Source: Roseburia sp. (GTDB lineage: Bacteria; Bacillota; Clostridia; Lachnospirales; Lachnospiraceae). From it: DNA of 64,000 nt. The stretch is from the NCBI GenBank assembly GCA_023664265.1, contig JAMPFV010000009.1, forward strand, positions 1 through 64,000. The letters run 5' to 3'. Position 1 is the stretch's first letter, and the number at the start of each line of letters is the position of its first letter. Positions 14,258 through 62,775 of the stretch are shown one piece after another. Below the pieces are notes generated by a model. It had not been told where the DNA came from. It did not search any database and saw only the letters and a program-made list of their open reading frames with translations. Position numbers and translations under genes: made by a program.

Positions 14258-16138
14258 TTGAAGGCAAAAAAATTGACGGCGCTTCTGCTGTCTGCGGCAA
14301 TGGGGGTTTCTCTCTGTGCATGTGGGGGAAGCGATACTCAGAACACAAGCGCTGATGTACCAGAGTCGCAGCAGACTTCGGAGGTAAGCACGGAGCAGGC
14401 GCAGACAGAGGCGAGTGAGGAGAAAGCGCCGGAGGCAGATGCAGCGCAGACGGGGGAGGTCAGTATTGACTTCGAGGACGGTCTGTTCGGCTTTGTCGGG
14501 AACGATAAGACGGTGAGCGGCGGTGCGGACGATTCCGTGTTCTCGGTGGAGGACTATAACGGCTCAAAGGCGCTGAAGGTGACGACACAGGGCAAGCTGC
14601 CATTTGTCGGGATTCAGGTGGACGCGCTTTTGGGGGAGAATGCTTCCAAGCTCAAGACAGTTGAGATGACGATCGGGACGGAGAACCCTGACGGGACATT
14701 CTACGCCTGCTCGGGTAATATTTACGGCCTTGTGGGTGCGGATAACACCAAGACAAACGAGGCGTGGTCCGTATATCTGGAGACCGGCAATCCCAAGATC
14801 GCAAGCTACACGGTTCCGGATGACCAGCCCTTTGGCGCGGGGAACCTGATTGTCGTCTCTCTGGAGACCGACAACGGCAAGGATAAGGGTGCGGCACAGG
14901 CCAACCTGTACATCGACAATATTATCTTTAAGGATGCGGGCGGCAGCGTGCTTCCGGTGGACACCTCCGCGGAGTTTACGGCGGTGAGCACGGATGTGGA
15001 CAGGTCCAACCTGTTTGCGGTGACAAAGGCCGTGAACTTTGAGGGCTTTACCTGCAGCGGAGACGGCTGGGCGCAGAACGGCTTTGACATGCCGCAGGAG
15101 ATTCTGGACGCGCTGGTACCGGGATCCGTGGTGGAGATTTCCTTCACCAGTGAGAACGGCGATCTGTGGATTGTCATGCCGGATGCGGCGGCAGGCTGGA
15201 TGCGCGTCGGCAACGGCGACAGTGATGTGTCCGCATATCTGAACAATGCCGGAAATATCGCGCAGATTACCTACGAGCAGCTTGCGGCCATCTGTGGGGA
15301 CGATGTGTCCACATGGGGCGCGAGGATGCAGTGTGAGGCGAGCGGCGCATGGGAGGTAAGCTCCGTGAAGGTCGGCATGAAGAGCAATCCGATTGCGGCG
15401 GCAGGCGCTGTGAACTTCGAGGGCTTTGCGTGCAGTGGAGACGGCTGGGCGCAGAATGGCTTTGACATGCCGCAGGAGATCCTGGACGCGCTGGTACCGG
15501 ATTCTGTAGTGGAGATTTCCTATAAGAGCGAGAACGGTGATCTGTGGCTCGTCATGCCGGACGCGGCGGCAGGCTGGATGCGTGTCGGCAACGGCGACAG
15601 TGATGTATACGCGGTCTGCGACGGAAGCAAGTGCTATGTGACCTATGAGCAGCTTGCGGCCATCTGTGGGGAGGATGTGTCCACATGGGGCGCGAGAATG
15701 CAGTGTGAGGCGAGTGGCGCATGGGAGGTTTACGGCGTGAAGGTCGGAAAGGCACAGGAGCTGAAGGCGCTGAATAAGTACACTCCGTTTGAGGGCTTTG
15801 CGTGCAGCGGGGACGGCTGGGCGCAGAACGGCTTTGACATGCCGCAGGAGATCTTGGACGCATTGGTTCCGGGCGCGGTCGTGCAGATTACCTACAAGAG
15901 TGAGAACGGCGATCTGTGGCTTGTCATGCCGGATGCGGCGGCAGGCTGGATGCGCGTCGGCAACGGTGACGGGGATGTGTATGCGTCCTGCACCGGAAGC
16001 GTCTGCCAGATTACTTATGAGCAGCTTGCGGCCATCTGCGGGGATGACGTGTCCGGATGGGGCGCGAGAATGCAGTGCGAGGCGAGCGGCGCATGGGAGG
16101 TTTACAGTGTTGTCGTAGGAGTTCCGGAGGCGGAATAG
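14258..16138 (+). CDS. Secreted lipoprotein with beta-sandwich domain and three near-identical 125-residue modules
   Basis: I do not recognise a named family. The TTG at 14258 is the best start: AAAGGAGG ends nine bases before it and the product opens with a clean lipoprotein signal (KAKKLTALLLSAAMG to LCACGG). The in-frame ATGs at 14228 and 14249 are less well placed. A Ser/Gln/Glu-rich linker follows, then a beta-rich domain (about 70-245) resembling carbohydrate-binding folds. Three tandem modules fill the rest, each with CSGDGWAQNGFDMPQEILDA, ENGDLW, MPDAAAGWMRVGNGD and WGARMQCEASGAWEV. It lies directly upstream of the second solute-binding protein, so glycan capture at the cell surface is a reasonable guess. 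The conserved Trp and Asp residues in each module would fit sugar binding. Confidence 0.72.
   Translation: MKAKKLTALLLSAAMGVSLCACGGSDTQNTSADVPESQQTSEVSTEQAQTEASEEKAPEADAAQTGEVSIDFEDGLFGFVGNDKTVSGGADDSVFSVEDYNGSKALKVTTQGKLPFVGIQVDALLGENASKLKTVEMTIGTENPDGTFYACSGNIYGLVGADNTKTNEAWSVYLETGNPKIASYTVPDDQPFGAGNLIVVSLETDNGKDKGAAQANLYIDNIIFKDAGGSVLPVDTSAEFTAVSTDVDRSNLFAVTKAVNFEGFTCSGDGWAQNGFDMPQEILDALVPGSVVEISFTSENGDLWIVMPDAAAGWMRVGNGDSDVSAYLNNAGNIAQITYEQLAAICGDDVSTWGARMQCEASGAWEVSSVKVGMKSNPIAAAGAVNFEGFACSGDGWAQNGFDMPQEILDALVPDSVVEISYKSENGDLWLVMPDAAAGWMRVGNGDSDVYAVCDGSKCYVTYEQLAAICGEDVSTWGARMQCEASGAWEVYGVKVGKAQELKALNKYTPFEGFACSGDGWAQNGFDMPQEILDALVPGAVVQITYKSENGDLWLVMPDAAAGWMRVGNGDGDVYASCTGSVCQITYEQLAAICGDDVSGWGARMQCEASGAWEVYSVVVGVPEAE
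15035..16117 (+). repeat. Three tandem in-frame repeats of about 375 bases
   Basis: Equivalent points (the Phe codon of the FEGF motif) fall at 15038, 15416 and 15788, so the periods are 378 and 372 bases. Long stretches are identical or nearly so at the DNA level, including silent positions, which points to recent duplication or gene conversion. The loop after VGNGD differs most between copies (SAYLNNAGNIAQ, YAVCDGSKCYV, YASCTGSVCQI); two of the three copies carry a Cys pair there, possibly a disulfide. Confidence 0.9.
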
Positions 16139-49660: not shown

Positions 49661-50560
49661 ATGACATTGGCACAGATGGTATATGCAGTTAAGATTGCGG
49701 ATACGAAATCAATGAACAAGGCCGCCACGGAGCTGTTTGTATCGCAGCCTGCGCTGTCCGGTGCGGTCCGGGATCTGGAGGAGGAGCTGCATATAGAATT
49801 GTTTATACGCACGAACCGCGGGATTGTGGTCACGACGGAGGGGGAAGAGTTTTTAAGCTATGCCAGGCAGATGGTGGAGCTGAACAAGATGATCGGCGAG
49901 CGGTATGTGGAGCATAAGCAGTCCAAGAAGAAATTCAGCGTATCCATGCAGCACTACTCGTTTGCGGTTGAAGCGTTTATCGAATTGGGGCGTCAGCTTT
50001 CCATGGACGAATTTGAATTGGCGGTGCATGAGACAAAGACCCACGAGGTGATTGATAACGTGAGGGACTACAGAAGTGAAATCGGCGTGCTGTATCAGAA
50101 TGCGTTCAATGAAAAGGCGATGAAAAAGATTTTTGCGGAGAACGGATTGGAATTTTTCCCGCTCTTTGTGTGCAGAATATCCGTGTATCTGAGCAAAAGT
50201 CATCCCTTGGCGGGAAAGGAGAGAATAGGCTTTGACGAGCTGAAGGACTACCCCTGCCTGTCGTTTGAACAGGGGGAGAAGAATTCCTTTTATTTTGCGG
50301 AGGAGGTATTGAGCACCTTGGACTATAAGCGGATTATCAAGGCGGATGACAGAGCCACCATGCTGAATCTGATGGTTGGCCTGCAGGGATACACCCTATG
50401 CTCGGGGATTATATGCGAAGCGCTAAACGGCGGCAATTTCGTCTCCGTGCCCTTGGACACGGAGGATACGATGACAATCGGGTATGTGAAGCGTAAGAAT
50501 ATGCCGCTTAGCATTCTCGGGCAGAGATACATTGACATTCTCAAAAAATACGGCAGCTGA
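49661..50560 (+). CDS. LysR-family transcriptional regulator
   Basis: 299 residues. The N-terminal winged helix-turn-helix is MTLAQMVYAVKIADTKSMNKAATELFVSQPALSGAVRDLEEEL, followed by an effector domain with SKSHPLAGKERIGFDELKDYPCLSFEQG. GGAAGGCAGGAAAG precedes the ATG. It lies immediately in front of the Rrf2/encapsulin locus and has a matching palindrome in its promoter, so it may regulate sulfur genes, perhaps in the way of CysB/CysL-type LysR proteins. Its effector is unknown. It converges with rrf2. Confidence 0.92.
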   Translation: MTLAQMVYAVKIADTKSMNKAATELFVSQPALSGAVRDLEEELHIELFIRTNRGIVVTTEGEEFLSYARQMVELNKMIGERYVEHKQSKKKFSVSMQHYSFAVEAFIELGRQLSMDEFELAVHETKTHEVIDNVRDYRSEIGVLYQNAFNEKAMKKIFAENGLEFFPLFVCRISVYLSKSHPLAGKERIGFDELKDYPCLSFEQGEKNSFYFAEEVLSTLDYKRIIKADDRATMLNLMVGLQGYTLCSGIICEALNGGNFVSVPLDTEDTMTIGYVKRKNMPLSILGQRYIDILKKYGS

Positions 50561-50605: not shown

Positions 50606-51037
50606 TCATATATAGTATTCGCAGGAATCCGGCTGCCTGTCTATCACATCCTGCAGGGTAATGCCGTTCAGATAATCAAGAATTACATGGTAAAGTCCCT
50701 CATACACGGGAAGCGTGAGACAGCCGTTGCAGTTTTCGCAGAGATTCGGGGAATTATCCATGCAGCTTACAGGCACAAGGCTTCCCTCGGCGCTCTCAAG
50801 GATTTCCCTCACGGTGATTTCGGAGGGCGATTTTGCAAGCCGGTAGCCTCCCATATGCCCCTTGTTGGCATTCAGCAGACTGCTCCTGTTTAGGAAGGGG
50901 ATAATTTGCTCCAAATATTTTTTGGAAATATTCTGTCGGGCAGAAATGTCCTTTAAGGCGATAAAGCCTTCATCATAATGCTGGGCGAGGTCAATCATCA
51001 TACGGAATGAGTACCGCCCTCTGGTCGAGATTTTCAA
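50606..51037 (-). CDS. Rrf2-family transcriptional regulator with cysteine cluster
   Basis: 143 residues; TTG start behind AAGGAGG. The N-terminal winged helix (MKISTRGRYSFRMMIDLAQHYDEGFIALKDISARQNISKKYLEQI) is typical of IscR/CymR. Residues about 93-110 contain four cysteines (SCMDNSPNLCENCNGCLTLP), so Fe-S cluster binding as in IscR or NsrR is possible, whereas CymR lacks such a cluster. It is divergently oriented to the encapsulin/sulfur operon, with about 340 bases in between that hold two promoters and repeated half-sites. It most likely senses sulfur or Fe-S status and controls that operon, itself, and perhaps LysR and metQ. Confidence 0.9.
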   Translation of the reverse strand: MKISTRGRYSFRMMIDLAQHYDEGFIALKDISARQNISKKYLEQIIPFLNRSSLLNANKGHMGGYRLAKSPSEITVREILESAEGSLVPVSCMDNSPNLCENCNGCLTLPVYEGLYHVILDYLNGITLQDVIDRQPDSCEYYI

Positions 51038-51086
51038 AACGGATTTCCTCCTTACTTACGAACAATAAAATATATCTTTAAAGCCT

Positions 51087-51115
51087 ATTATACCACGGAA
51101 TACATAGGCAATCAA
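51087..51115 (-). promoter_or_regulatory. rrf2 promoter with flanking half-sites
   Basis: On the minus strand: TTGATT, a 17-base spacer and TATAAT. Inverted GCCTAT (51083-51088) and ATAGGC (51104-51109) overlap the -10 and the spacer, 15 bases apart, so autoregulation is likely. Confidence 0.7.
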
Positions 51116-51277: not shown

Positions 51278-51307
51278 TTGACAAATCGGATGGACAATGC
51301 GTATAAT
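51278..51307 (+). promoter_or_regulatory. Promoter of the encapsulin/sulfur operon
   Basis: TTGACA, an 18-base spacer and TATAAT, both perfect hexamers. The leader to the ATG at 51377 is about 60 bases and contains the palindrome at 51330. Confidence 0.88.
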
Positions 51308-51329
51308 GACACTATCACAAAACATATAA

Positions 51330-51350
51330 AGCCTATTAAAATAATAGGCT
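51330..51350 (+). promoter_or_regulatory. Candidate Rrf2 operator of the sulfur operon
   Basis: AGCCTATTA-AAA-TAATAGGCT, a perfect 9-3-9 palindrome centred about 33 bases after the -10. It shares its core with the LysR site. Position downstream of the start would block elongation or initiation. Assignment to the adjacent Rrf2 protein is inference. Confidence 0.65.
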
Positions 51351-51376
51351 GATAAAAAGAAGCGAGGTGAAAGCGG

Positions 51377-52840
51377 ATGACGGCAACCGTATTGATAGCG
51401 GCTACACTGCGGTCCTTCACGAACCAGAATGCGAGGCTTGAATTGGAGGGGGAGACGGTGGAGGATATTTTGAAGGCAATGTTTGAGGAATATCCGGAAG
51501 CCCGAACGGCATTATTCGATGAGAACGGAAGGCTGAGATCCTTTGTCAGCATTTATGTAAATGGGAAAAACATCCATGCCTTGGACGGAGTACAGACAAG
51601 AATCGGCGCAGGGGACGAGCTCCTGTTCCTTCCGGTGATTGCCGGAGGCGCGCAGCAAGAGAGCGTCATTTCGGAGGAACGCAGGAAGGCGGTAAAGCTG
51701 GACGACAGGGAAATTGACAGGTATGGAAACCACCTGCTCCTGCGCGAGGTCGGCGTAAAGGGGCAGAAGAGGATCAAGGCCGCAAAGGTTCTGATTATCG
51801 GCGCGGGGGGACTCGGCTCGCCGGCTGCGCTTTATCTGGGCGCGGCGGGTGTAGGAACCATAGGGATCGTGGATTGCGATGAGGTTTCCATTCCGAATCT
51901 GCAAAGTCAGATTATCCACGGAACCCGTGATGTGAATCGGCCGAAAGTGGCCTCCGTGAAGGATGCCATCCGCCGAATCAATCCGCTTGTCCGGGTGGAG
52001 ACCTACAATATAAAGCCGGATGCGGGCAATGTGGGAGAAATCATTGAGGAGTATGACATTGTTGTGGATGCGGCGGACAATTATCCGACGCGGTATCTGG
52101 TGAATGACATCTGTGCGCTGTCGGGAAAACCGGTGGTATTTGCAGCAATGTATCAGTATGAGGGATATGTCACGGTGTACGACGCCGCAAAGGGACCCTG
52201 TCTTCGCTGTCAGTTCCCCGCTCCGCCGCCTGCAGGACTGGTTCCGACATGCGCCGAGGGCGGCGTGATCAGTACATTGCCGGGAATCGTGGGAAGCATT
52301 CAGGCCAATGAGGCTTTAAAGCTGATTATCGGCGGAGGGTCTTCCCTAATCGGAGAGATGCTTATCTATGATGCGTGGAACAATGAGACGAGGAAAATCC
52401 GTGTCGAGAAGGATGGCAAATGCCCTGTCTGTGGGAAAAATCCAAGCATTTCCAAGGCGGAGGACTTTGACTATGAGGATTTCTGCGGATTAAAGCAGGA
52501 GGAAGAGGAGCTGCCGATAGAAGGGATAGAGCCGGAGGAGCTTGCGGCGAGGATTGACCGCGGGGAGGCGCTTACGATTGTTGATGTCAGGGAGCCTCAC
52601 GAACGGGCCGTGACGCGCTTCTCGAACGCCATCGTGATTCCGATCGGACAGCTCGCAAGACGCCAGAAGGAATTGAATCCCGACATTGACACGATTTTTA
52701 TATGCAGGGAAGGGAAAAGAAGCATTCTCGCAATCAATACGCTGCGCGAGGCGGGGTATAAAGGCCCAATGTATAACTTAAAGGGCGGAGTGGAGAAAGC
52801 GCGCCATATCATTTTCCCGAATGAGGGCGCATGGCTGTAA
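51377..52840 (+). CDS. MoaD-like, ThiF/MoeB and rhodanese tri-domain fusion
   Basis: 487 residues. The N-terminal ubiquitin-like domain (about 1-92) ends in FLPVIAGGA, with Gly90-Gly91 where a free MoaD or ThiS would end. The middle (about 105-350) is an E1-like adenylyltransferase: GAGGLGSPAALYLGAAGVGTIGIVDCDEVSIPNLQSQ, VVDAADNYPTRYLVND, and zinc Cys pairs CLRC and CPVC. The C-terminal rhodanese (about 385-487) has the active-site Cys443 in CREGKRS. It can adenylate a carrier C-terminus and supply sulfur as persulfide, like MoeZ-type proteins, here with a carrier domain attached. It is the first gene of the operon with the encapsulin 84 bases downstream. Confidence 0.9.
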   Translation: MTATVLIAATLRSFTNQNARLELEGETVEDILKAMFEEYPEARTALFDENGRLRSFVSIYVNGKNIHALDGVQTRIGAGDELLFLPVIAGGAQQESVISEERRKAVKLDDREIDRYGNHLLLREVGVKGQKRIKAAKVLIIGAGGLGSPAALYLGAAGVGTIGIVDCDEVSIPNLQSQIIHGTRDVNRPKVASVKDAIRRINPLVRVETYNIKPDAGNVGEIIEEYDIVVDAADNYPTRYLVNDICALSGKPVVFAAMYQYEGYVTVYDAAKGPCLRCQFPAPPPAGLVPTCAEGGVISTLPGIVGSIQANEALKLIIGGGSSLIGEMLIYDAWNNETRKIRVEKDGKCPVCGKNPSISKAEDFDYEDFCGLKQEEEELPIEGIEPEELAARIDRGEALTIVDVREPHERAVTRFSNAIVIPIGQLARRQKELNPDIDTIFICREGKRSILAINTLREAGYKGPMYNLKGGVEKARHIIFPNEGAWL

Positions 52841-52924
52841 CGCCTGTATTTTCCGGAGGAGCCTTTGGGAAGGCCGCGGGCGTGTACATAAATAAAAACA
52901 GAGAATGAGGAGGTTGTTGTTATC

Positions 52925-53869
52925 ATGGCAAACGAAGCACGGACAATAAACGCTTTAGGGGCGCAGGAGGCCTATAATCTGGCGAATGTCACAAAGACAA
53001 AGCCGCAGTATGGGGCAATTACCCCTAGGTGGCTGACGAAGCTGTTGGAGTTTAAGGGACTGGAGACGGGGATTTACCGCGTAAACAGGGTGGTTGAGGG
53101 GGAAACGCCCTTGGACGTCCTGTGCAGTCAGACAAAGAAATCAGATATTGTTCCGCAGGGGTATGTGGAATATGAGACCGAGCCGAGGGAATACAGGCTC
53201 AACTCCGTATCAACGATCATCAATGTCAATACCGCCATTGAAGATTTGTACGGCGCGCCCTACGACCAACTGCAGGAGCAGCTTGCGCTTGCGATCGAAA
53301 GCCTCCGCGAGCGGCAGGAGAGCCAGTTGATCAATAATGACGATTACGGCCTTCTGAAGAATGTGGCGGAGAGTCAGCGGATTCAGACCCGCAATGGAGC
53401 GCCCACGCCGGATGATTTGGACGAATTGATCACCAAGGTGTGGAAGGAGCCGTCCTTCTTCCTCGCGCATCCGAGGGCGATAGCCGCCTTTGAGAGAGAA
53501 TGCACAAGGCGCGGCGTGCCGCCGGTAACCGTAAATATCGCGGGGGGCGTCTTCATTTCATGGAGAGGGATCCCGTTGATACCGACGGACAAGCTGCTTG
53601 TGGACGGGCTGAAAAACCCAAAGAGCCAAAGCGGAAAGACAAACATCCTGTTAGTTCGTACAGGGGAGGCAAAGCGGGGCGTGATCGGTCTGTATCAGGC
53701 AGGACTTAAAAATGAACATTCCAGAGGCCTGTCGGTACGGTTCCGCGGGATTGACGACAAGGGCGTTGCTTCTTATCTCTTATCCTTGTATTGCTCTGCT
53801 GCCATTTTATCGGATGATGCGATTGCGGCGCTTGAGGATGTAGAGGTAGGTGAATACTATGAGTATTGA
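52925..53869 (+). CDS. Family 2A encapsulin shell protein (SrpI-like)
   Basis: 314 residues with the HK97 capsid fold. It closely matches the SrpI type throughout: LANVTKTKPQYGAITPRWL, GIYRVNRVVEGETPLDVL, YETEPREYRLNSVSTIINV, SLRERQESQLINNDDYGLL, RNGAPTPDDLDELITKVWKEPSFFLAHPRAIAAFERE, FISWRGIPLIPTDKLLV, RGVIGLYQAGL, SVRFRGIDDKGVASYLLSLY. The extended N-terminal arm is present and no cyclic-nucleotide-binding insertion of family 2B is seen. Subunits self-assemble into a cage that encloses a cargo enzyme. The cargo gene follows with an 11-base overlap. AGGAGG lies about ten bases before the ATG. No phage portal, terminase or tail genes are near. Confidence 0.95.
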   Translation: MANEARTINALGAQEAYNLANVTKTKPQYGAITPRWLTKLLEFKGLETGIYRVNRVVEGETPLDVLCSQTKKSDIVPQGYVEYETEPREYRLNSVSTIINVNTAIEDLYGAPYDQLQEQLALAIESLRERQESQLINNDDYGLLKNVAESQRIQTRNGAPTPDDLDELITKVWKEPSFFLAHPRAIAAFERECTRRGVPPVTVNIAGGVFISWRGIPLIPTDKLLVDGLKNPKSQSGKTNILLVRTGEAKRGVIGLYQAGLKNEHSRGLSVRFRGIDDKGVASYLLSLYCSAAILSDDAIAALEDVEVGEYYEY

Positions 53870-55286
53870 TGTGAACAGGCAGATTTATCCGGATGAAGCG
53901 GAGCTTGAGGCATTGGCGAATCGGCTTTGGGAGCAGCAGAGATACGCTTTGGCAGAGCCGGCGCGGCAGACCGCCTTTTCTCCGGTAGTGGTCCCGCAGG
54001 AGAATGCCGACGGCCGCGCGATTGATTTGGGACGGCAAAGGGCAGAGGGAACGCCGAACGGGAGCAGCCCATATATCGGTACGAAAACCCTTGCGCAAAT
54101 CCGAAGCGATTTTCCAATCCTCTCGGAGCAGGTCAACGGGCATCCGCTGATTTGGATGGACAATGGGGCGACAACACAGCGGCCGCGCGCCGTAATTGAC
54201 CGCCTGTCCTACTTTTATGAGCATGAAAATTCAAACGTACACAGAGGCGCCCATGCGTTGGCGGCCTTGGCGACGGACGCCTATGAGGGGGCAAGGCGGA
54301 CGGTGGCGGATTTCCTTGGCGTTTCGGACGAGAAGCAGATCGTGTTTGTCAGAGGGACGACAGAGGGCATCAATCTGGTCGCAAACGCTTATGTAAAGCC
54401 GATGCTGAAGCCGGGCGACGAAATCATCCTGACGCTGCTTGAGCACCACGCCAACATTGTCCCGTGGCAGATGGTGGCGCAGGAAACAGGAGCGGTGATC
54501 AAGGTCGCTCCGGTGGACGAGACAGGACAGCTTATCCTGTCAGAGTATGAGAGGCTGTTCACAGGCAGGACGAAATTTGTTTCCGCGACGCAGGTATCCA
54601 ATGTATTGGGGACGATCACGCCGATAGAGGAACTGGTTGCGATCGCGCACCGGCACGGGGTGAGAATCCTGGTTGACGGAGCGCAATCGGTGGCGCACAT
54701 TCCGGTAAACCTGACGGCGCTCGATGCGGACTGGTTTGTATTTTCGGGGCATAAAATATATGCGCCCACGGGAATCGGCGCGGTTTACGGAAAAAAAGAA
54801 GCGCTTGAGGCGGCAAAGCCGTACCATGGTGGCGGCAATATGATCAAGGACGTCACGTTTGAGCGCACGGTTTACAATCCCGCACCCAATAAATTTGAGG
54901 CCGGAACCGGCAGTATCGCGGACGCGGTGGGGCTCGGCGCCGCATTGGAGTATCTTACCCGAATCGGGATGCACGATATCAGCCGCTATGAGCATGAGCT
55001 GGTGCAGTATGGAATGAAGGAGCTTGCAAAGGTCAAGGGGCTTCGTCTGATCGGGACAGCGGCAAATAAATCAAGCGCATTGTCCTTTGTATTGGACGGC
55101 GTACCCAATGAGGCGGTGGGCGAGCGGCTGAACGCCAACGGGATTGCGGTCAGAGTCGGACATCACTGCGCGCAGCCGATTTTGAGGCATTACGGCTTGG
55201 AGGGAGTCGTCCGGCCGACGCTGGCGCTTTACAATTCCTTTGAGGAGATTGATGCGCTGGTGAGAACGGTAAGGACGTTGGCATAA
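53859..55286 (+). CDS. Cysteine desulfurase (SufS-like) with N-terminal encapsulation extension
   Basis: 475 residues; the ATG at 53859 has AGGTAGG eight bases upstream and overlaps the encapsulin stop. It removes sulfur from cysteine by PLP chemistry, leaving alanine and an enzyme persulfide. The PLP lysine is Lys299 in FSGHKIYAPTG and the catalytic Cys437 lies in GHHCAQPILRHYG, a SufS-type (group II) arrangement. Residues 1 to about 78 are an extension absent from ordinary SufS: DEAELEALANRLWEQQRYAL, then a linker rich in Pro, Gly, Ser and Arg. Family 2A cargo enzymes are loaded into the shell by such an N-terminal region. Here it is short compared with cyanobacterial examples. Confidence 0.95.
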   Translation: MSIDVNRQIYPDEAELEALANRLWEQQRYALAEPARQTAFSPVVVPQENADGRAIDLGRQRAEGTPNGSSPYIGTKTLAQIRSDFPILSEQVNGHPLIWMDNGATTQRPRAVIDRLSYFYEHENSNVHRGAHALAALATDAYEGARRTVADFLGVSDEKQIVFVRGTTEGINLVANAYVKPMLKPGDEIILTLLEHHANIVPWQMVAQETGAVIKVAPVDETGQLILSEYERLFTGRTKFVSATQVSNVLGTITPIEELVAIAHRHGVRILVDGAQSVAHIPVNLTALDADWFVFSGHKIYAPTGIGAVYGKKEALEAAKPYHGGGNMIKDVTFERTVYNPAPNKFEAGTGSIADAVGLGAALEYLTRIGMHDISRYEHELVQYGMKELAKVKGLRLIGTAANKSSALSFVLDGVPNEAVGERLNANGIAVRVGHHCAQPILRHYGLEGVVRPTLALYNSFEEIDALVRTVRTLA

Positions 55287-55316
55287 GGCTTTTGTGTCGG
55301 GAATGGAGGGATGGAA

Positions 55317-55562
55317 ATGGCAGAAATCAGCTACGACGCGGAGGTTGATATAACAGATAAGGTATGTCCGCTTACGTTTGTAAAGGCAAAGGTGGCATTG
55401 GATGAACTGGACGAAGGGGAAGTGCTGGCAATCCGCCTCAACGACGGCGAGCCGGTACAGAATGTTCCGAGAAGCTTTCAACAGGAGGGGCAGGAGGTAT
55501 TGGATCTTGTCAGCAATGAGGACGGGACATATACCCTGTATGTGAGAAAGGCGGGAGAATAA
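55317..55562 (+). CDS. TusA-like sulfur relay protein
   Basis: 81 residues. The ATG at 55317 is preferred to 55311 because GGAGGG lies six bases before it. TusA fold with the sulfur-carrying Cys17 in VCPLTFVKAKVALDEL; the family motif is CPxP, and here the last Pro is Thr. It would accept persulfide sulfur from a desulfurase and pass it on. The stop overlaps the next start (TAATG), so translation is coupled. Position between the desulfurase and the ThiS-like carrier fits a relay. Confidence 0.9.
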   Translation: MAEISYDAEVDITDKVCPLTFVKAKVALDELDEGEVLAIRLNDGEPVQNVPRSFQQEGQEVLDLVSNEDGTYTLYVRKAGE

Positions 55563-55783
55563 TGGTTATTACAGTGAGTGGTGAGAAAAAGGAAGTAAAG
55601 GACGGCATAACGCTGCCCGAGCTGATAGAGGCGGAGCAGGTAGAGACGCCGGAGTACGTGACGGTCTCCATCAATGAGGAGTTCGTTGAAAGGAGCGCGA
55701 TCGAGAGTACGATCCTCAGGGAGGGGGACACGGTAGAGTTTTTATATTTCATGGGAGGTGGCGCTGGTGGCTTTCACGGATGA
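55562..55783 (+). CDS. ThiS-like sulfur carrier with C-terminal residues beyond the GG motif
   Basis: 73 residues, ubiquitin-like. The body (TVSGEKKEVKDGITLPELIE, YVTVSINEEFVER, LREGDTVEFLYFMGGG) is a ThiS/MoaD-type carrier; free carriers end at the diglycine, but here AGGFHG follows MGGG. Such carriers need a protease to expose GG before adenylation, as for QbsE/QbsD and HcyS/HcyD, and a JAMM protease is encoded two genes later. The GGG-coding bases also provide the GGGAGG ribosome binding site of the next gene, so the tail may partly be a by-product of that overlap. Function could be a thiocarboxylate for cysteine, homocysteine or thiazole synthesis. Confidence 0.85.
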   Translation: MVITVSGEKKEVKDGITLPELIEAEQVETPEYVTVSINEEFVERSAIESTILREGDTVEFLYFMGGGAGGFHG

Positions 55784-56576
55784 ACAGTTGGAGCGCTATT
55801 CGCGCCATATAATATTGAAGGAGATCGGGGCAAAGGGGCAGAAAAAGCTGCTTCAGGCCAAGGTATTGATCGTAGGCGCCGGCGGTCTTGGCGCGCCCGC
55901 GGCTATGTATCTTGCCGCGGCGGGCGTGGGGACAATCGGCATCGCGGATGCGGACGAGGTGGATCTTTCCAACCTTCAGCGCCAGATCATCCATGCTACG
56001 GAGGACGTCGGAAAGCCCAAGGTGGAATCCGCGAGGGAGACGATGGAGCGGATGAATCCCGACGTTACGGTACATACTTATCACACCTTTGTGACATCGG
56101 ACAACATCAGGGAGCTTATCCGCGATTATGATTTTGTCATTGACGGGACAGACAATTTTCCCGCAAAGTTTCTGATAAATGACGCCTGCGTCATGGAAAA
56201 AAAGCCGTTCTGCCATGCGGGCATCATCCGTTTCAAGGGACAGCTTATGACCTATGTCCCGGGGGAGGGGCCATGTTACCGCTGTGTATTTAAGAATCCG
56301 CCGCCCAAGGATGCGGTGCCTACCTGTAAGCAGGCGGGCGTGGTCGGCGCCATGGGCGGCGTGATCGGAAGCCTTCAGGCGATGGAGGCAATCAAGTATA
56401 TTATCGGAAAGGGAAATCTGCTGACAGGCGCTTTGCTGACCTTTGACGCGCTGAATATGGATTTCCACAAAGTCAGGCTTCCTAAGGACACGCATACCTG
56501 CCCTGTCTGTGGAGATCATCCGACGATTACGGAGCTGATCGATTATGAACAGGCAGCGTGTGAGTTGAAGCGCTAG
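55767..56576 (+). CDS. ThiF/MoeB/HesA-family adenylyltransferase
   Basis: 269 residues. The GTG at 55767 is preferred: GGAGG lies eight bases upstream, inside the end of the ThiS-like gene. RYSRHIILKEIGAKGQKKL opens the E1-like fold; GAGGLGAPAAMYLAAAGVGTIGIADADEVDLSNLQRQ is the ATP site, VIDGTDNFPAKFLIND is conserved, and the zinc Cys are in CYRC and CPVC. It lacks the rhodanese and carrier domains of the enzyme at 51377, so the operon has two E1-like enzymes. It probably activates the adjacent carrier by adenylating its C-terminal Gly. Confidence 0.92.
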   Translation: MAFTDEQLERYSRHIILKEIGAKGQKKLLQAKVLIVGAGGLGAPAAMYLAAAGVGTIGIADADEVDLSNLQRQIIHATEDVGKPKVESARETMERMNPDVTVHTYHTFVTSDNIRELIRDYDFVIDGTDNFPAKFLINDACVMEKKPFCHAGIIRFKGQLMTYVPGEGPCYRCVFKNPPPKDAVPTCKQAGVVGAMGGVIGSLQAMEAIKYIIGKGNLLTGALLTFDALNMDFHKVRLPKDTHTCPVCGDHPTITELIDYEQAACELKR

Positions 56577-56599
56577 GAAATGGCAAGGGTGGTGTTTAT

Positions 56600-57013
56600 A
56601 TGCTGATTCTTCATCAGAGCGATTATCAAAATATGTTGGCGCACGCGAGGGCGGGGTTTCCGAATGAGGCCTGCGGGCTGATTGCAGGGACAATCCGTGA
56701 CGGGATCGCGGAGGTGCAAAGGGCCTATCTTATGACGAATGCGGATGGCAGCAGGGAGCATTTCAGCATTGATCCCAAGGAGCATATGGCGGCGATAAAG
56801 GATATGCGTGCAAACGGCTATATTCCGCTTGGGAACTGGCATTCTCATCCGGAGACGCCGTCAAGGCCCTCCGAGGAGGACAAAAGGATGGCATATGATT
56901 CGAATGCCCTGTACCTGATTTTGTCCCTGCAGGATAAGGACGCGCCGGTGCTGAACGCATTCCGAATCATCGACCGCAAAGAGGTCATAAAAGAGGAGAT
57001 TGATTTGAAATGA
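56600..57013 (+). CDS. JAMM/MPN metalloprotease (Mec/HcyD/QbsD-like)
   Basis: 137 residues of the M67 family. The zinc and catalytic set is complete: Glu23 in NEACGL, His81 and His83 in NWHSHPETPSRPSEED, Ser91 and Asp94. These proteases cleave after the diglycine of ubiquitin-like sulfur carriers, either to remove a C-terminal tail (QbsD, HcyD) or to release cysteine from a carrier adduct (Mec). The carrier at 55562 with its tail is the obvious partner. AAGGGTGG precedes the ATG. The peptide-transporter genes follow after 38 bases. Confidence 0.93.
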   Translation: MLILHQSDYQNMLAHARAGFPNEACGLIAGTIRDGIAEVQRAYLMTNADGSREHFSIDPKEHMAAIKDMRANGYIPLGNWHSHPETPSRPSEEDKRMAYDSNALYLILSLQDKDAPVLNAFRIIDRKEVIKEEIDLK

Positions 57014-57051: not shown

Positions 57052-58806
57052 ATGAAAAAGGGAACCGGAATTTTGGCATTGCTGCTTGCGGGAATCGTAT
57101 CGGCGGGCGCGCTGTCAGGCTGCGCGGGAGCAGCGGACACGGGTGCCGATAACGCCGTCAGCGCGCCGTCATCGGAGCAGACAGCCGCCGGCACGGCGCA
57201 GACGGCGGAGACGGCCGGCACGCAGATTTTGAATGTCAGCACGACTGCTTTCGGCAACAATTATGATGTGCAGGACATGGGGTGGCGCTGGATGATGGCG
57301 GACTGCTATGAGGGCTTGTACCGAAATGTGGCGGACGATACCGGCGAGCATTTCATCCTTGCGGGTGCAGAGAGCGTAGAGGTATCGGAGGATGGAAAAA
57401 AATACACATTTCATTTAAGGGAAAATGCAAAATGGTCCGATGGCGAGCCTGTGACGGCGCGGGATTATGAATATGGCTGGAAGCGCCTTCTGAATCCGGA
57501 GTACAATTATTCTTACGCCACCTTTATCTATAATGTCGCGGGCGCGGAGGAATACAATAAAGGGACTGCATCGGCGGATGAGGTGCAGGCTGTCGCGGTG
57601 GATGATTACACCTTTGAGGTGACGCTGAAGGAGGCGGATCCCACCTTTGAGGTAAAGCTGGTGGCAACGCCGTTATACCCGACGCGTCAGGATATTGCGG
57701 AGGCGGCAGGCGATTTATGGGGAAAGGATTGGACCCTGTGCGTTTATAACGGTCCGTTCTGCATGAGCGGGCTCGTGGAGGACAATAAAATGGTATGGAC
57801 CAAAAACCCGTATTATTGGGATGCGGAAAATACGCATTTGGATACCATAAACTGGTATATTGTGGCGGAGGAGGCCACCCGTTCCACGATGTTTGACAAC
57901 GGGGAGCTGGATCTGATACAGCCCTCGGGCGATTATGCGGTGAAATACAGAGAAGAAGCGGAGGCCGGAGAGGTCTGGAAGGTGGTTTATGATTATCCGG
58001 GAACCTTGGGACTTCGATTCAATTTCTTAAACGGCGGTCCGGAGCAGTTGGTCAGCAGCGCGAAGATCAGAAAGGCGATTTCTTATGCGATAGACAGAGA
58101 GGAATTTGTGGAGGCCGTGTACGGCAGATACGAGCCTGCATATTCGTATGTATCTCCGGCAATCTCCTTCAACGGAAGCCCTTACCGCAGCCAGACCGAT
58201 GAAATCATCCGGCAGGAATATGAGACATATGCGAACGATTCGGACAAGCTGCAGGCGCTGTTCAGGGAGGGGCTTGATGAGCTCGGCATTGATAAGCCGC
58301 TGTCGGATATTAAGCTGGTCTACCTTACATACGGGTCATCCGTAGAGGCGCAGGCCGAGCGGGAGTATTTGCAGCAGACTCTGCAGAACAAGCTGGGCGT
58401 TCAGATCGAAATCAACGTTGTGGGGGATTCTTCCCTGTTTGCCGCCGAGAGAGACGCGGGCAATTATGACTTTATTTACAGCGGGTGGTATGCGGACTAT
58501 AATGATCCGTTGGATTTCCTGTACACCTATTACACGGACGCCTACGGAACGAGCTTTGGAAGCTACAGCAATCCGGAATATGACAGGCTGATTGATTCGC
58601 TGACCGGCGAGACGGACATGGCGAAGCGGCTGCAGATATATGAGGACCTTGAGAAGCTTCTTCTGTTGGAGGATTACGCGTTTGCGCCGATTTACTACAG
58701 CACGAAGGAGGTCATTTTGCAGAATTGGGTAAAGGATTACAGAACCTCCTCCTTTGGAGCGAGCTCTGAATTTTATATCACTTATATTGAGGGGAAGAAC
58801 CAATAA
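57052..58806 (+). CDS. Oligopeptide-type ABC substrate-binding lipoprotein (family 5)
   Basis: 584 residues with a lipoprotein signal ending SAGALSGC (Cys near 24) and an Ala/Thr/Gly-rich linker. Family-5 features are YTFHLRENAKWSDGEPVTARDYEYGWKRLLNPE, NGPFCMSGLVEDNKMVWTKNPYYWD, IRKAISYAIDREEFV and a C-terminal GWYADYNDPLDFLYTYYTD. It is the OppA/DppA part of a five-gene importer following the sulfur operon without a terminator. Peptides or glutathione-like sulfur compounds are possible ligands, inferred only from context. GGAGGGAT precedes the ATG. Confidence 0.93.
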   Translation: MKKGTGILALLLAGIVSAGALSGCAGAADTGADNAVSAPSSEQTAAGTAQTAETAGTQILNVSTTAFGNNYDVQDMGWRWMMADCYEGLYRNVADDTGEHFILAGAESVEVSEDGKKYTFHLRENAKWSDGEPVTARDYEYGWKRLLNPEYNYSYATFIYNVAGAEEYNKGTASADEVQAVAVDDYTFEVTLKEADPTFEVKLVATPLYPTRQDIAEAAGDLWGKDWTLCVYNGPFCMSGLVEDNKMVWTKNPYYWDAENTHLDTINWYIVAEEATRSTMFDNGELDLIQPSGDYAVKYREEAEAGEVWKVVYDYPGTLGLRFNFLNGGPEQLVSSAKIRKAISYAIDREEFVEAVYGRYEPAYSYVSPAISFNGSPYRSQTDEIIRQEYETYANDSDKLQALFREGLDELGIDKPLSDIKLVYLTYGSSVEAQAEREYLQQTLQNKLGVQIEINVVGDSSLFAAERDAGNYDFIYSGWYADYNDPLDFLYTYYTDAYGTSFGSYSNPEYDRLIDSLTGETDMAKRLQIYEDLEKLLLLEDYAFAPIYYSTKEVILQNWVKDYRTSSFGASSEFYITYIEGKNQ

Positions 58807-58837
58807 CTGACAAAGGAAAAGATGGAAAGGCAAGGTT

Positions 58838-59800
58838 ATGGTAAAGTACATATTCAGACGCTTTTGCGAATTGGCAGTGACGATATTCCTGATTGCGTCG
58901 GCGACCTTTTTCCTGCTTGAGGCGGTACCGGGAGATCCGCTTACGGGACGGGCGGATGTGATGCCCGTCCAGAGCAGGGAAATCCTGTACAGGAAATATG
59001 GGTTAGACAGGCCTGTTTGGGAACGGTATGTCCTCACGATGAAGAAAATGTGCAAGGGAGATTTCGGAGAGTCCTTTGTGTATGCAGGGCAGACCGTAAC
59101 CGGTTTAATCCATGACCGTCTTCCCGTATCCGCGCGGCTGGGGATACAGCAGATGCTTCTGGGCGTCGGAATCGGGCTGCTGCTTGGCATTGTGGCGGCA
59201 ATGAAGCGCGGAACGTGGATAGATTACACGGTAGTCGGGCTATCGGTTCTGATGATCTCAGTGCCGCATTTAATATTCGGACTGCTTTTGCAAAAGGTAT
59301 TTGCGGGGAATCTCCGCTGGTTTCCGACCATCGGATGGCCGTCGGGCAGAGAGCTGTGGCTTGGCGGATGGAAATATACGGTACTGCCGACGCTCACGGG
59401 ATGCTTTTCGTATATCGCATCCTATTCCAGACTGCTGAAGACCTCGATTCTGGACGTCGTGAATCAGGATTATGTGATGACGGCGGAGGCCAAGGGGCTG
59501 AGCAGGGGGGCGATCATCAGGAGACACATCCTGAGAAATTCATTTATTCCCGTTATGACGCAACTGCCGATGTCGGTAGCCATGTGCATTACAGGCTCCT
59601 TCTTTATAGAAAGCATCTATTCCATTCCGGGAATCGGGCAGTATTATGTGATGGCCGTAAACAATCAGGATCTCTCGATTGTGATGGGAGAAACGGTGCT
59701 GTTGGCTCTCCTGTATATTGCGGTGCTTTTCCTGACGGATGTTTTGTATGTGGCAGTGGATCCGCGCATTGCGTTGGCGGGAAGCGGACGTGAAAGATAA
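58838..59800 (+). CDS. Peptide ABC transporter permease (OppB/DppB type)
   Basis: 320 residues, six membrane segments, with a long extracellular loop after the first (VPGDPLTGRADVMPVQSREILYRKYGLDRPVWERY) typical of OppB. The cytoplasmic EAA loop is VNQDYVMTAEAKGLSRGAIIRRHILRNSFIPV, and ITGSFFIESIYSIPGIGQYY is conserved near the end. It would form the channel with the next gene. Confidence 0.94.
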   Translation: MVKYIFRRFCELAVTIFLIASATFFLLEAVPGDPLTGRADVMPVQSREILYRKYGLDRPVWERYVLTMKKMCKGDFGESFVYAGQTVTGLIHDRLPVSARLGIQQMLLGVGIGLLLGIVAAMKRGTWIDYTVVGLSVLMISVPHLIFGLLLQKVFAGNLRWFPTIGWPSGRELWLGGWKYTVLPTLTGCFSYIASYSRLLKTSILDVVNQDYVMTAEAKGLSRGAIIRRHILRNSFIPVMTQLPMSVAMCITGSFFIESIYSIPGIGQYYVMAVNNQDLSIVMGETVLLALLYIAVLFLTDVLYVAVDPRIALAGSGRER

Positions 59801-59818
59801 GAAAGGGCGGGGATATTT

Positions 59819-60730
59819 ATGGTATCACAAGATCAGTTTCGGGTGGTTGGCGCTTCGCGGGAGGAGGCGGATATGCTTGTGCGTCCGGCTGTTTCCTATT
59901 GGCAGGACGCCTGGAGGCGACTGCGGAAAAATCCTGTGGCAATGGCCTCTCTGGCGGTGCTGGCGCTGTTTGCGGTTATGGTAGTGATCGGGCCGAACCT
60001 GCGGGGATACGATTATATTACAATGAATGTGCCGGAGAAGAATCAGGGGATGAGCGTCCGATATTGGTTTGGGACAGACAGCCTTGGCAGGGATTTGTTT
60101 TCCAGAATCTGGGTGGGCGCAAGGGCCTCTGTCTTGATCGCGGTGACCGCAACCGCAATCAAGCTGACAATGGGAATTATCTACGGCGCCTGCATGGCTC
60201 ATTTTGGCGGTGTGGTGGACGATGTGCTGATGCGCGTTATCGAGGTCATCAACTCTCTTCCGCATCTTTTGCTCACCATCCTGATTATGATGGTGCTGGG
60301 AAATAATCTGTTTGCGCTGCTTGTGGCGCTTTCCATTACGGCATGGTGTTCCACCGCAAGGCAGGTCAGGGGGCTTATCAAGCAGCTCAAGGAGACGGAG
60401 TATGTCTACGCGGCAGAGGTTTTGGGGGCAAGTCCCGTCCGGATCATCGTGAAGCACTATATCCCAAATATGGTGGGAATCTTGATTTTGGAGGCGTCCA
60501 CGGCAATCCCGTCGTTTATCTTTACGGAGGCGGGGCTGAGCTTTTTGGGAATCGGGCTGGTGTCGCCGGAGATCAGCCTCGGTGTTTTGATATCCTTAGG
60601 GCAGCAGACGCTGGATTTTTATCCGACGCAGCTTCTGTTTCCCTGTCTTGTCCTCTGTATCCTTGTTATGGCGTTCAATCTGTTGGGGGACGGGCTCAGG
60701 GATGCGTTGGATCCGAAATTACGGCAGTAG
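59819..60730 (+). CDS. Peptide ABC transporter permease (OppC/DppC type)
   Basis: 303 residues, six membrane segments after a cytoplasmic N-terminus of about 40 residues. FGTDSLGRDLFSRIWVGARASV is the conserved OppC segment; the EAA loop is TEYVYAAEVLGASPVRIIVKHYIPN. It starts 18 bases after oppB-like and is followed by the ATPase genes. Confidence 0.94.
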   Translation: MVSQDQFRVVGASREEADMLVRPAVSYWQDAWRRLRKNPVAMASLAVLALFAVMVVIGPNLRGYDYITMNVPEKNQGMSVRYWFGTDSLGRDLFSRIWVGARASVLIAVTATAIKLTMGIIYGACMAHFGGVVDDVLMRVIEVINSLPHLLLTILIMMVLGNNLFALLVALSITAWCSTARQVRGLIKQLKETEYVYAAEVLGASPVRIIVKHYIPNMVGILILEASTAIPSFIFTEAGLSFLGIGLVSPEISLGVLISLGQQTLDFYPTQLLFPCLVLCILVMAFNLLGDGLRDALDPKLRQ

Positions 60731-60751
60731 ACAAGAAAGGAGCAAGGGCAT

Positions 60752-61777
60752 ATGAGTGGAGAAGCGCCGATTCTGGAGGTAAAAAACCTCAGGGTTTCCT
60801 ATCATACATATGCAGGGGAGATACAGGCGGTCAGAGGCGTGTCCTTTGCGCTGGATAAGGGAAATATATTGGCGGTGGTAGGAGAATCCGGCTGTGGGAA
60901 ATCCGTTACGGCAAAGACGATCATGGGGCTGATCAGGAAGCCGTTTGGCGAGATTAAAGAGGGCAGTGAAATCCTATATCAGGGAGAAAATATTCTGGAT
61001 TACAATAAAAAGCAGTGGGCAAGGTACAAAGGCGGGGAGTGCGCAATCGTGTTTCAGGATGCGCTCGCAGCCCTGAATCCCACTATGAGAGTGGGAAAAC
61101 AGGTGGCGGAGAACATCATACTGCACCGGCATGTCGGAAAAAGGGAGGCGTGGGAGGCGTCTGTGGAAATGCTGCGCCTTGTCGGCATACCGGATCCGGA
61201 GAGGCAGGCAAGGCAGTATCCGCACGAGCTGTCAGGCGGGATGCGCCAGCGCGTAATGATCGCGATTGCCTTCGCCTGCGCCCCTAAGCTGTTGATATGC
61301 GATGAACCGACAACCGCATTGGATGTCACGATTCAGGGTCAGATTTTGGATCTGATAAAGACACTCCGCAAAGAGAAAAATACTTCCGTCATAATGATTA
61401 CACACGATCTGGGCGTTGTGGCAAGCATCGCACAGGAAATCGCGGTGATGTACTCCGGAATCATTGTGGAGCAGGGAAGCTGTGAGGATATTTTTTATAC
61501 GCCGAGGCATCCCTATACCGCGGCGCTGATCCGGGCGGTGCCCGGGTTGGAGGCGGGGGCCGGACAGCGTCTCGAAACCATTCCGGGAACGCCTCCAGAT
61601 CTGCTCAAGCCGCCCTTGGGCTGCCCCTTTGCGCCGCGGTGTGAATACTGCATGGAAATATGCAGGGAGGCGCAGCCGGCGTATACGGATTTTGGCGGCG
61701 GACATTCTGCGGCGTGCTGGCTGCACCACGAATATGCGCCAGCGGTTGATTTGCGGACATGGAGGGGGGCGGTATGA
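60752..61777 (+). CDS. Peptide ABC transporter ATPase (OppD/DppD type)
   Basis: 341 residues. Walker A GESGCGKSVTAKTIMG, signature LSGGMRQRVMIAIAFA, Walker B LLICDEPTTALDVT, and the C-terminal oligopeptide extension with PGTPPDLLKPPLGCPFAPRCEYC, whose Cys may hold a metal cluster as in other Opp ATPases. GAAAGGAG precedes the ATG. The stop overlaps the next start. Confidence 0.95.
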   Translation: MSGEAPILEVKNLRVSYHTYAGEIQAVRGVSFALDKGNILAVVGESGCGKSVTAKTIMGLIRKPFGEIKEGSEILYQGENILDYNKKQWARYKGGECAIVFQDALAALNPTMRVGKQVAENIILHRHVGKREAWEASVEMLRLVGIPDPERQARQYPHELSGGMRQRVMIAIAFACAPKLLICDEPTTALDVTIQGQILDLIKTLRKEKNTSVIMITHDLGVVASIAQEIAVMYSGIIVEQGSCEDIFYTPRHPYTAALIRAVPGLEAGAGQRLETIPGTPPDLLKPPLGCPFAPRCEYCMEICREAQPAYTDFGGGHSAACWLHHEYAPAVDLRTWRGAV

Positions 61778-62775
61778 TGGCTCAGGAAAAGGAAGCGCTT
61801 TTTTCAGTGAGGCATTTAAAGAAATATTTCCCGGTCAGGAAAAACGAAATTTTAAAAGCGGTGGATGATGTATCCTTCGAGATATATAAAGGCGAGACGC
61901 TTGGAATGGTGGGGGAATCCGGCTGCGGAAAGACCACCTGCGGCCGAACCTGTATCGGGCTTTACCCGAGGGATGGCGGCGAGATTCTCTACAAGGGAAA
62001 GGACATTGCCGCATTTTCCGCCAAGGAGAAAAAGGCCTTTAAAAGGGAGGTACAGATGGTCTTTCAGGATCCCTACAGCTCCCTTGACCCGCGCATGACC
62101 GTGGCGGACATTATCGGGGAGGGAATAGATATCCACCATCCGGCAAAGGGGAAGCAGGAGCGTCAGCAGCAGATTTATCGGTATCTCAAGCTGGTAGGGC
62201 TCAACAGCGAACACGCAAGCCGTTTTGTGCATGAGTTTTCCGGAGGGCAGCGGCAGAGAATCGGAATAGCGAGGGCGCTTGCGGTGCAGCCGGAGTTTTT
62301 GGTGTTGGATGAGCCGATTTCCGCTTTGGACGTGTCCATTCAGGCTCAGATCGTCAATCTGTTGGTCTCGCTGCAGCAGGAGATGGGGCTGACATACCTT
62401 TTTGTGGCCCATGACCTTTCCATGGTCAAATACATATCGGACCGCGTAGCGGTTTTTTATCTGGGAACCATGGTAGAGCTCGCGGAGGCGGACGAGCTGT
62501 ATGCAAACCCCAGACATCCCTATACACAGGCGCTGCTCTCGGCAATTCCGATTCCCGACCCGGTTGTGGAGCGGGAAAGGGACGCGAAAAAAATCCGTCT
62601 GGAGGGAGAAGTGCCAAGCCCGATCAATCCGAAGCCGGGGTGCCGATTCCAGAGCAGATGCCGGTTTGCGACGCCGCGGTGCAGAGAGCAGATGCCGGCG
62701 CTTGCGGATTTGGGGAAGGAGCACTATGTCGCGTGCAATCTGTACAACGGAGGGGAAGTCGGGGATGTGGAATAA
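61774..62775 (+). CDS. Peptide ABC transporter ATPase (OppF/DppF type)
   Basis: 333 residues from the ATG at 61774 (ATG at 61777 and 61759 are also in frame); GGAGGGGGG lies a few bases upstream. Walker A GESGCGKTTCGRTCIG, signature FSGGQRQRIGIARALA, Walker B LVLDEPISALDVS, and the C-terminal Cys-containing extension CRFQSRCRFATPRC. It forms the heterodimeric ATPase with the previous gene and overlaps it by four bases. Confidence 0.95.
   Translation: MMAQEKEALFSVRHLKKYFPVRKNEILKAVDDVSFEIYKGETLGMVGESGCGKTTCGRTCIGLYPRDGGEILYKGKDIAAFSAKEKKAFKREVQMVFQDPYSSLDPRMTVADIIGEGIDIHHPAKGKQERQQQIYRYLKLVGLNSEHASRFVHEFSGGQRQRIGIARALAVQPEFLVLDEPISALDVSIQAQIVNLLVSLQQEMGLTYLFVAHDLSMVKYISDRVAVFYLGTMVELAEADELYANPRHPYTQALLSAIPIPDPVVERERDAKKIRLEGEVPSPINPKPGCRFQSRCRFATPRCREQMPALADLGKEHYVACNLYNGGEVGDVE

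Follow-up and report, generated by a model that had tools for sequence, protein, structure and literature searches.

Within a 64,000-nucleotide stretch of a Roseburia sp. genome (contig JAMPFV010000009.1; hereafter the window), seven consecutive genes on the plus strand, at 51377-57013, encode a ubiquitin-like (Ubl)-E1-rhodanese fusion, an encapsulin shell protein, a cysteine desulfurase (CD), TusA, ThiS, a second E1 and a JAMM metalloprotease. We give an even chance to the putative function proposed here, that the operon banks cysteine-derived sulfur in the shell and reloads it onto the carriers as thiocarboxylate for cysteine or homocysteine. The carrier genes form two modules, not a single relay: the fusion belongs to the encapsulin, and the ThiS-E1-JAMM-TusA set is separate. 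An earlier note on this DNA rightly placed carrier genes with the shell, but its single relay divides into the fusion, which in relatives has a JAMM of its own, and the separable ThiS-E1-JAMM-TusA set.

The encapsulin locus and its relatives

All of the named genes are open frames at the place and on the strand given. The first, of 487 amino acids (aa) at 51377..52840, is a fusion with ThiS, ThiF and Rhodanese domains by Pfam. Domain profiles and alignment place in it a MoaD/SAMP1-like Ubl, an internal AGG (residues 89-91) at the Ubl/E1 border, the E1 GxGxxG and rhodanese Cys443. The shell gene follows at 52925..53869 (314 aa). Its product matches PF19307 and the family 2A model NF041162 (encap_f2a; 490.5 bits against a cut-off of 380), and its top PDB matches are the Major membrane protein I and SrpI shells. 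It has a single Pfam domain, without the inserted cyclic-nucleotide-binding domain that marks family 2B, and scores 384 with the 2B model, under the cut-off of 400. F273 and Y284 of the shell align with SrpI F262 and Y273, which were placed near cargo density in the structure (PMC8049743).

The SufS-type CD (53859..55286) is the predicted cargo and carries an N-terminal extension of about 80 residues. It reaches 521 bits with TIGR01979 (cut-off 475) and 763 bits with the cargo desulfurase model NF041166, under that model's cut-off of 800, probably because its N-terminal part is short. By alignment, the active site contains Cys440 and the pyridoxal phosphate (PLP) lysine Lys302. The lysine is kept in 79/79 CD rows and the catalytic cysteine in 76 (two gaps, one other residue). 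Cys440 is also the sole cysteine of the window CD, one of only two single-cysteine proteins among the 79.

Downstream lie TusA (55311..55562, with Cys19), the ThiS-family carrier (55562..55783), the E1-like adenylyltransferase without a rhodanese domain (55758..56576) and a JAMM of the type found beside free ThiS, called type 1 (56600..57013; active-site residues E23, H81, H83, S91 and D94). TusA, ThiS, ThiF and Prok-JAB all exceed their Pfam cut-offs. The shell and CD genes overlap by 11 bp with the CD start at ATG 53859, which is likelier than the listed open reading frame (ORF) start at GTG 53850; TusA and ThiS overlap by 1 bp, ThiS and the second E1 by 26 bp, and the remaining gaps are 84, 24 and 23 bp. 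Open frames, profiles and residue readings confirm the gene set, order, tight overlaps and active-site motifs described in the earlier note, among them a family 2A encapsulin, a cysteine desulfurase beside it and one E1-like enzyme fused to MoaD-like and rhodanese domains. Its span of 51330..57013 is correct in gene content but not in its start: the first gene begins at 51377, and 51330 lies in a palindrome in the leader.

To compare neighbourhoods, the shell protein was scanned against the genome_contigs collection (one genome per species, 84,980 species), with at least 595 pattern matches and at least 540 relatives; the best 80 of these relatives form the comparison set, the 80 loci. Neighbours were counted by tblastn only on contigs reaching far enough, and a homologue at E 1e-4 counts wherever in the locus it lies. 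These counts supersede an ORF-based one that missed hidden ORFs (fusion 72/73, JAMM 65/70; with looser flanks, in 53 loci, serine acetyltransferase 43, sulfhydrylase 39, ThiS 40, TusA 38). In 73/73 testable loci the gene immediately upstream of the shell gene is the fusion, and in 78/78 a CD lies downstream of the shell. A JAMM is found upstream of the fusion in 68/70 (67 of type 2, one of type 1; the misses are L075 and L081). Accidental adjacency, against which the earlier note had proposed just such a comparison, does not fit this conserved grouping; together with the co-occurrence in family genomes given below, the counts lead us to reject chance as the reason why shell and carrier genes lie together.

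Forty-seven loci have flanks of 4 kb or more upstream and 6 kb or more downstream. A serine acetyltransferase is present in 44 of them (identity at least 55%) and an O-acetylserine/O-acetylhomoserine (OAS/OAH) sulfhydrylase in 38 (35 at 48% identity or more, three at 29-31%). ThiS, JAMM type 1 and TusA occur in 35 each, as does the whole window gene set. Counting these families only, the ten-gene order sulfhydrylase-JAMM2-fusion-shell-CD-serine acetyltransferase-ThiS-E1-JAMM1-TusA is kept in 21/47, and the core order JAMM2-fusion-shell-CD-acetyltransferase in 38/47. Family names are from NCBIfam, with one example each; matches to EpsC, CysK and CysD exceed the cut-offs, and the sulfhydrylase, cysE and sulfite-reductase-C assignments are family-level calls below them.

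Because relatives add the acetyltransferase and the sulfhydrylase, the comparison points to cysteine or homocysteine synthesis rather than to a cofactor. The earlier note had named all three; the recurrent neighbours favour the first two and, being biosynthetic for O-acetylserine, disfavour the third. That the set serves molybdopterin or thiamine synthesis, as MoaD/MoeB or ThiS/ThiF, is accordingly very improbable. Public records do label the fusion MoeB or adenylyltransferase/sulfurtransferase, and the window ThiS passes TIGR01683. However, no other thiamine or molybdopterin gene occurs among the 10 window proteins scanned or among the named recurrent neighbours (no search of the 80 loci was aimed at ThiG or MoaE), the capped tails described below are unlike a ready ThiS, and the recurrent neighbours make and use O-acetylserine.

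Shell and fusion also occur together across genomes. Of 150 genomes sampled from the family to which the window belongs, four have the encapsulin; a full-length fusion (E <=1e-60) is present in the same four and in none of the other 146. The chance of a perfect 4/150 match is p ~5e-8 if genomes are taken as independent, which ignores their actual kinship. Partial fusion matches in 16 other family genomes cover the E1 part (query ~90-380), with two exceptions, both across a stop codon: G489 (47-367) and G469 (104-463, E1 plus rhodanese, no Ubl). One genome, G521, has two shell-fusion-desulfurase loci (L147 and L108), with the whole set at only one. In a class sample of 391 genomes, a PF19307 shell is found in seven and the full-length fusion in two (E 1e-80, with at most four candidates per genome scored), both of the window's shell clade.

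Most of the best-80 set is rumen Lachnospiraceae, joined by Treponema zioleckii (L044), one Fibrobacter-labelled record (L034) and two Ruminobacter records (L058, L074), with shells 85-91% identical to that of the window. In the family of T. zioleckii, the shell is found in 3/145 genomes, that genome included, at 85-89% identity, and fusion and CD adjoin it in all three. The package appears to travel as one unit, and the sequence identities make exchange between phyla likely. The encapsulin tree is shallow, with 47 of 83 inner branches open, and supports rarity and high cross-phylum identity without placing a transfer event. For Fibrobacter the record is one metagenome-assembled genome (MAG) label and for Ruminobacter two MAGs; T. 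zioleckii is a named strain. Six records labelled Spirochaetota, Pseudomonadota or Fibrobacterota (L044, L058, L074, L034, L203 and L205) have shells 85-89% identical to the window's.

Other features of these loci were also recorded. AprA-like, ferredoxin, CysD and CysN genes, for sulfate activation and reduction, lie immediately upstream of the JAMM-fusion-shell block in L022, L025, L052 and L076. A Rhodanese-TusA-DsrE2-like fusion (L051:15413-16483; domains assigned by eye, with the DsrE2 model below cut-off) is found near the encapsulin in 10/47 loci. Pseudobutyrivibrio xylanivorans and P. ruminis (L025, L033, L022) carry the JAMM-fusion-shell-desulfurase-acetyltransferase block.

Two carriers and their JAMM proteases

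In ThiS/MoaD chemistry the carrier needs a free C-terminal glycine for adenylation, and thiamine ThiS ends in a free GG. The window ThiS instead ends in FMGGG-AGGFHG, and the free ThiS of 56/56 relatives ends in FMGGG plus one to five extra residues, so that all 57 are capped (24 of the 80 loci, without a ThiS match, were left out, and the reading had no thiamine-type ThiS as control). Since adenylation requires the free glycine, such a tail needs trimming. In the fusion, P-x-[IV]-A-G-G at the Ubl/E1 border and rhodanese Cys443 are invariant in 77/77 sequences, and the linker behind the motif varies in sequence and in length (21-32 residues up to Arg115); the alignment omits four of the 80 loci (L059, L061, L090 and L093), where the gene is hidden or cut off. 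An AlphaFold model of the fusion has pLDDT below 50 at residues 87-94, the AGG and linker, which are thus probably flexible. Its top Foldseek match is Uba4-Urm1/MOCS3 (6yub, 6yuc; TM 0.44-0.50, root-mean-square deviation 23), with the domains differently arranged. From the capped GGG tails and the invariant internal AGG, the free ThiS and the fused Ubl both resemble pro-carriers in need of cleavage by a JAMM.

The JAMM types follow their carriers across loci. In the 47 loci, type 1 is present wherever free ThiS is (35/35) and absent wherever it is not (12/12), and type 2 is retained in those same 12. Both types retain the active-site residues (41 of type 1; 66 upstream of the fusion, with one row gapped at the Glu). 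This pattern suggests one protease per carrier, type 1 with free ThiS and type 2 with the fusion. In L035, outside the 47, a lone type 1 JAMM lies between the ThiS-E1 pair and the fusion. A database protein, P0079, is a single chain of JAMM-Ubl-E1-rhodanese with its motifs intact; it may be two genes joined by a sequencing error.

The same proteins could be read as a regulatory system in which the fused Ubl is a SAMP-style modifier that the E1 attaches to a target (shell, desulfurase or sulfhydrylase) and the JAMM takes off again, so that it would regulate the compartment instead of carrying sulfur. The Ubl domain exceeds the SAMP1 cut-off (61.2 bits against 60), the window JAMM resembles desampylase with a score below the model cut-off, and SAMP1 and HvJAMM1 regulate an enzyme likewise (PMC4443979). 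Nevertheless, we regard this role as improbable, given the invariant rhodanese cysteine and recurrent neighbours that are biosynthetic. This is not decisive, as urmylation also uses a rhodanese (PMC5349211).

A proposed sulfur route through the shell and its rivals

Under the storage proposal, the N-terminal extension of the CD would keep the enzyme inside the shell, where it would convert cysteine to alanine and sulfur, the latter retained in the lumen. Elemental sulfur in the shells of cysteine desulfurase encapsulins is reportedly the subject of a primary paper. Because shell pores exclude proteins, the sulfur would leave on demand as a small persulfide or sulfide, to be taken up by the fusion rhodanese at Cys443 and, for the second module, by TusA. 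A JAMM would cleave the pro-carriers after GG, at the ThiS cap and at the linker behind the AGG of the fused Ubl, exposing a C-terminal glycine. The E1 domain would adenylate this glycine and the persulfide would turn it into a thiocarboxylate. A PLP-dependent sulfhydrylase, near the shell in most relatives and elsewhere in the window genome, would join it to O-acetylserine or O-acetylhomoserine, and the JAMM would then free cysteine or homocysteine and regenerate the carrier. Individual steps have precedents: storage of sulfur by cysteine desulfurase encapsulins (PMC12407261), sulfur flow in Tum1-Uba4-Urm1 (PMC5349211), JAMM cutting of a linear Ubl fusion (PMC4443979) and thiocarboxylate routes to cysteine and methionine (PMC6225789).

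We put forward a narrower version more tentatively: that a Ubl-E1-rhodanese pro-protein, cut by its dedicated JAMM, collects sulfur at the storage shell and delivers thiocarboxylate to cysteine synthesis, atop an older ThiS-TusA route. A likely sulfur receiver is genetically tied to the shell, as the carrier-E1-rhodanese fusion occurs only with the window type of encapsulin in the sampled genomes, and the question of sulfur exit thereby becomes testable in cultured rumen strains. If true, this would be, to our knowledge, the first link between an encapsulin and a ubiquitin-like protein, and it would give a role to genes labelled MoeB. As part of the same tentative reading of an unloading machine, the package would be common to rumen bacteria whose records carry four phylum labels.

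A number of observations weigh against a storage and reloading role. The window operon is without the sulfhydrylase, the serine acetyltransferase and the second JAMM that relatives carry. Elsewhere, the window genome encodes a distantly related serine acetyltransferase (43%, over the core only) and sulfhydrylase-like genes (36-39%), and a second JAMM above cut-off was not found in this genome, which is ~94% complete. The single window JAMM would therefore serve both carriers, unless a second lies in the missing part. Breaking cysteine down with a CD encoded next to cysteine biosynthesis genes is futile, except where the two are separated in time. In the window CD, 82 residues precede the conserved domain, fewer than in any other of the 79 rows (median 166, longest 306; CD ORF starts in relatives are uncurated), and its first cargo motif is partly kept, with LAN but not the PDL tail. 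A strict cargo-motif pattern matched 29 of the 79 CD rows and was not used as support. Five other Clostridia shell loci, from other families, consist of shell and CD with no carrier genes except one distant E1-like match (31% identity, ~6 kb from the shell, in L103; L106 is cut by the contig end). The 80 loci are the best matches; they are interrelated, in some cases to near identity, and the set leans towards rumen Lachnospiraceae. Finally, the ThiS module lies away from the shell in 12/47 loci, and it is present, by an E1 of at least 74% identity, in 11/146 encapsulin-free family genomes as well as in all four encapsulin genomes.

Several of these points bear on particular claims. Loading of the window CD is plausible despite its short extension, by analogy with a system where the first 100 residues of the N-terminal domain sufficed, less efficiently than the full domain (PMC8049743). 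The window genome also has a CysK (74% identity) that adjoins one sulfhydrylase-like gene and a desulfurase-like gene. A complete thiocarboxylate relay within the operon, as the earlier note had it, is rejected: there is no acceptor sulfhydrylase, no serine acetyltransferase and only one JAMM, and the carrier tail is capped, with no ready GG. We likewise reject carriers as a universal feature of family 2 encapsulins. Because the five other Clostridia loci, two of them with shells that open-frame length assigns to the longer 2B-like type, are without carrier genes apart from the L103 match, carriers are not required for family 2 function in general.

The distribution of the ThiS module bears on a further explanation, in which carriers and encapsulin each respond to sulfur shortage on their own and stand in one operon for co-regulation alone. 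No sulfur would then pass from shell to carriers, whose sulfide would be supplied by sulfite reduction, on the pattern of the Hcy-type pathway described below. Thirteen encapsulin genomes lack ThiS near the shell, and 12 of them, L036 being the exception, have its E1 elsewhere (77-85% identity). There it stands beside ThiS, JAMM1 and TusA in 12/12, with a sulfite-reductase-like gene in 11/12 (L148, the remaining one, is truncated where its contig stops); within the 3-4 kb covered, 2/12 also have a sulfhydrylase. These neighbours, together with the encapsulin-free genomes that carry the set, speak for this explanation. However, it leaves unexplained why the full-length fusion was found in no sampled genome lacking the encapsulin and directly adjoins the shell gene in every testable locus, and why the fusion has a rhodanese domain, a persulfide acceptor. 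We consider it somewhat unlikely. From its distribution, the ThiS module looks like an older and separable pathway to which the encapsulin with its fusion is an addition.

Regulation, flanking genes and known systems

The divergent regulator named in the earlier note is borne out as an Rrf2-family protein of 143 aa (50606..51037, minus strand; PF02082, 118 bits). It scores below the cut-offs of both the CymR and IscR models, and neither identity is accepted. Judging from the sequence, its cysteines 92, 100, 103 and 106 could be Fe-S cluster ligands. A promoter predicted for the Rrf2 gene, TTGATT-17-TATAAT, lies at 51115-51087 on the minus strand. The predicted operon promoter, TTGACA-18-TATAAT at 51278..51307 (+), matches the sigma-70 consensus perfectly at 12/12 positions. 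The 12-mer TAAAGCCTATTA overlaps the -10 box of the predicted Rrf2 promoter (51079..51090, +) as a candidate operator half-site, and a second copy falls just 3' of the operon promoter within a perfect 9-bp palindrome, AGCCTATTA-N3-TAATAGGCT (51327..51350, +); the exact 11-mer core of the 12-mer is present just twice in the 64 kb. Palindrome and 12-mer copies together are a candidate Rrf2 operator, through which Rrf2 would control both promoters.

A five-gene oligopeptide-type ABC transporter (57052-62775) runs in the same direction, begins 38 bp past the JAMM gene and is possibly co-transcribed; relatives of its binding protein were found in none of the 80 loci. The end of a LysR regulator gene (49661-50560, +) is close to the oppositely oriented Rrf2 gene, and relatives of LysR (37-49%) occur in a few encapsulin loci. 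Farther away, 14228-16138 encodes a secreted-looking protein in a sugar ABC cluster, with three near-identical repeats of ~105 residues each as read from the translation. Rfam at gathering scores gave no matches over the window, and a tRNA search of it found none.

The closest relatives on the shell side are the SrpI or family 2A-CD systems of Synechococcus elongatus (PMC8049743, PMC8346489), which have the same shell family and the same type of adjacent cargo as the window. Rhodanese and serine acetyltransferase are enriched neighbours of 2A-CD systems (PMC8346489) and so are shared, but in the window the rhodanese forms the last domain of a Ubl-E1-rhodanese fusion, and JAMM genes lie close by. 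Such genes go unmentioned in the available parts of the two papers: TusA does not occur in the main text of PMC8346489, nor ThiF in PMC8049743; their supplementary neighbourhood tables may list these genes unremarked.

On the carrier side, the ThiS-TusA-E1-JAMM part of the window is a known neighbourhood type. It resembles type 4e of Iyer, Burroughs and Aravind 2006, in which ThiS/MoaD, JAB, an E1 without rhodanese and SirA/TusA stand with sulfur-assimilation genes, in low-GC Gram-positives among others (PMC1779556). Encapsulin and desulfurase have no occurrence in the available part of that paper, and the Ubl-ThiF fusion as described there is without rhodanese. Uba4-Urm1 and MOCS3 share the E1 plus rhodanese architecture, but Urm1 is a separate protein, whereas the window Ubl is fused before the E1. 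Compared with thiamine ThiS/ThiF, the window has no neighbouring ThiG or ThiC among the 10 proteins scanned, and its carrier tail is capped. The Hcy-type methionine pathway of Wolinella (Krishnamoorthy and Begley 2011, a study cited in PMC5764234 and PMC6225789) reportedly comprises a capped ThiS-like carrier, an E1, a JAMM, an OAH sulfhydrylase and sulfite reductase, and is said to be without encapsulin, desulfurase or Ubl-E1-rhodanese fusion. The window shares with it a ThiS-like carrier capped behind GG, in one operon with E1 and JAMM. Unlike that pathway, the window operon is without a sulfhydrylase, whose homologues lie elsewhere in the genome and which 38/47 relatives have.

A literature search found no paper with both 'encapsulin' and 'sulfur carrier'; the pair 'encapsulin' and 'ubiquitin' was not searched. 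Descriptions of the encapsulin-carrier combination, the encapsulin-linked fusion or paired JAMM enzymes were not found in the parts of the literature available, with unremarked listing in supplements possible. The earlier note knew of no described system with the whole set; within the literature searched, the encapsulin tie and the fusion likewise did not appear, and the ThiS-TusA-E1-JAMM part is a known type (PMC1779556). Taken together, each part of the locus is known; what is new within the literature searched, as far as those sources were available, is their combination, together with the Ubl-E1-rhodanese fusion linked to the encapsulin and the pairing of JAMMs.

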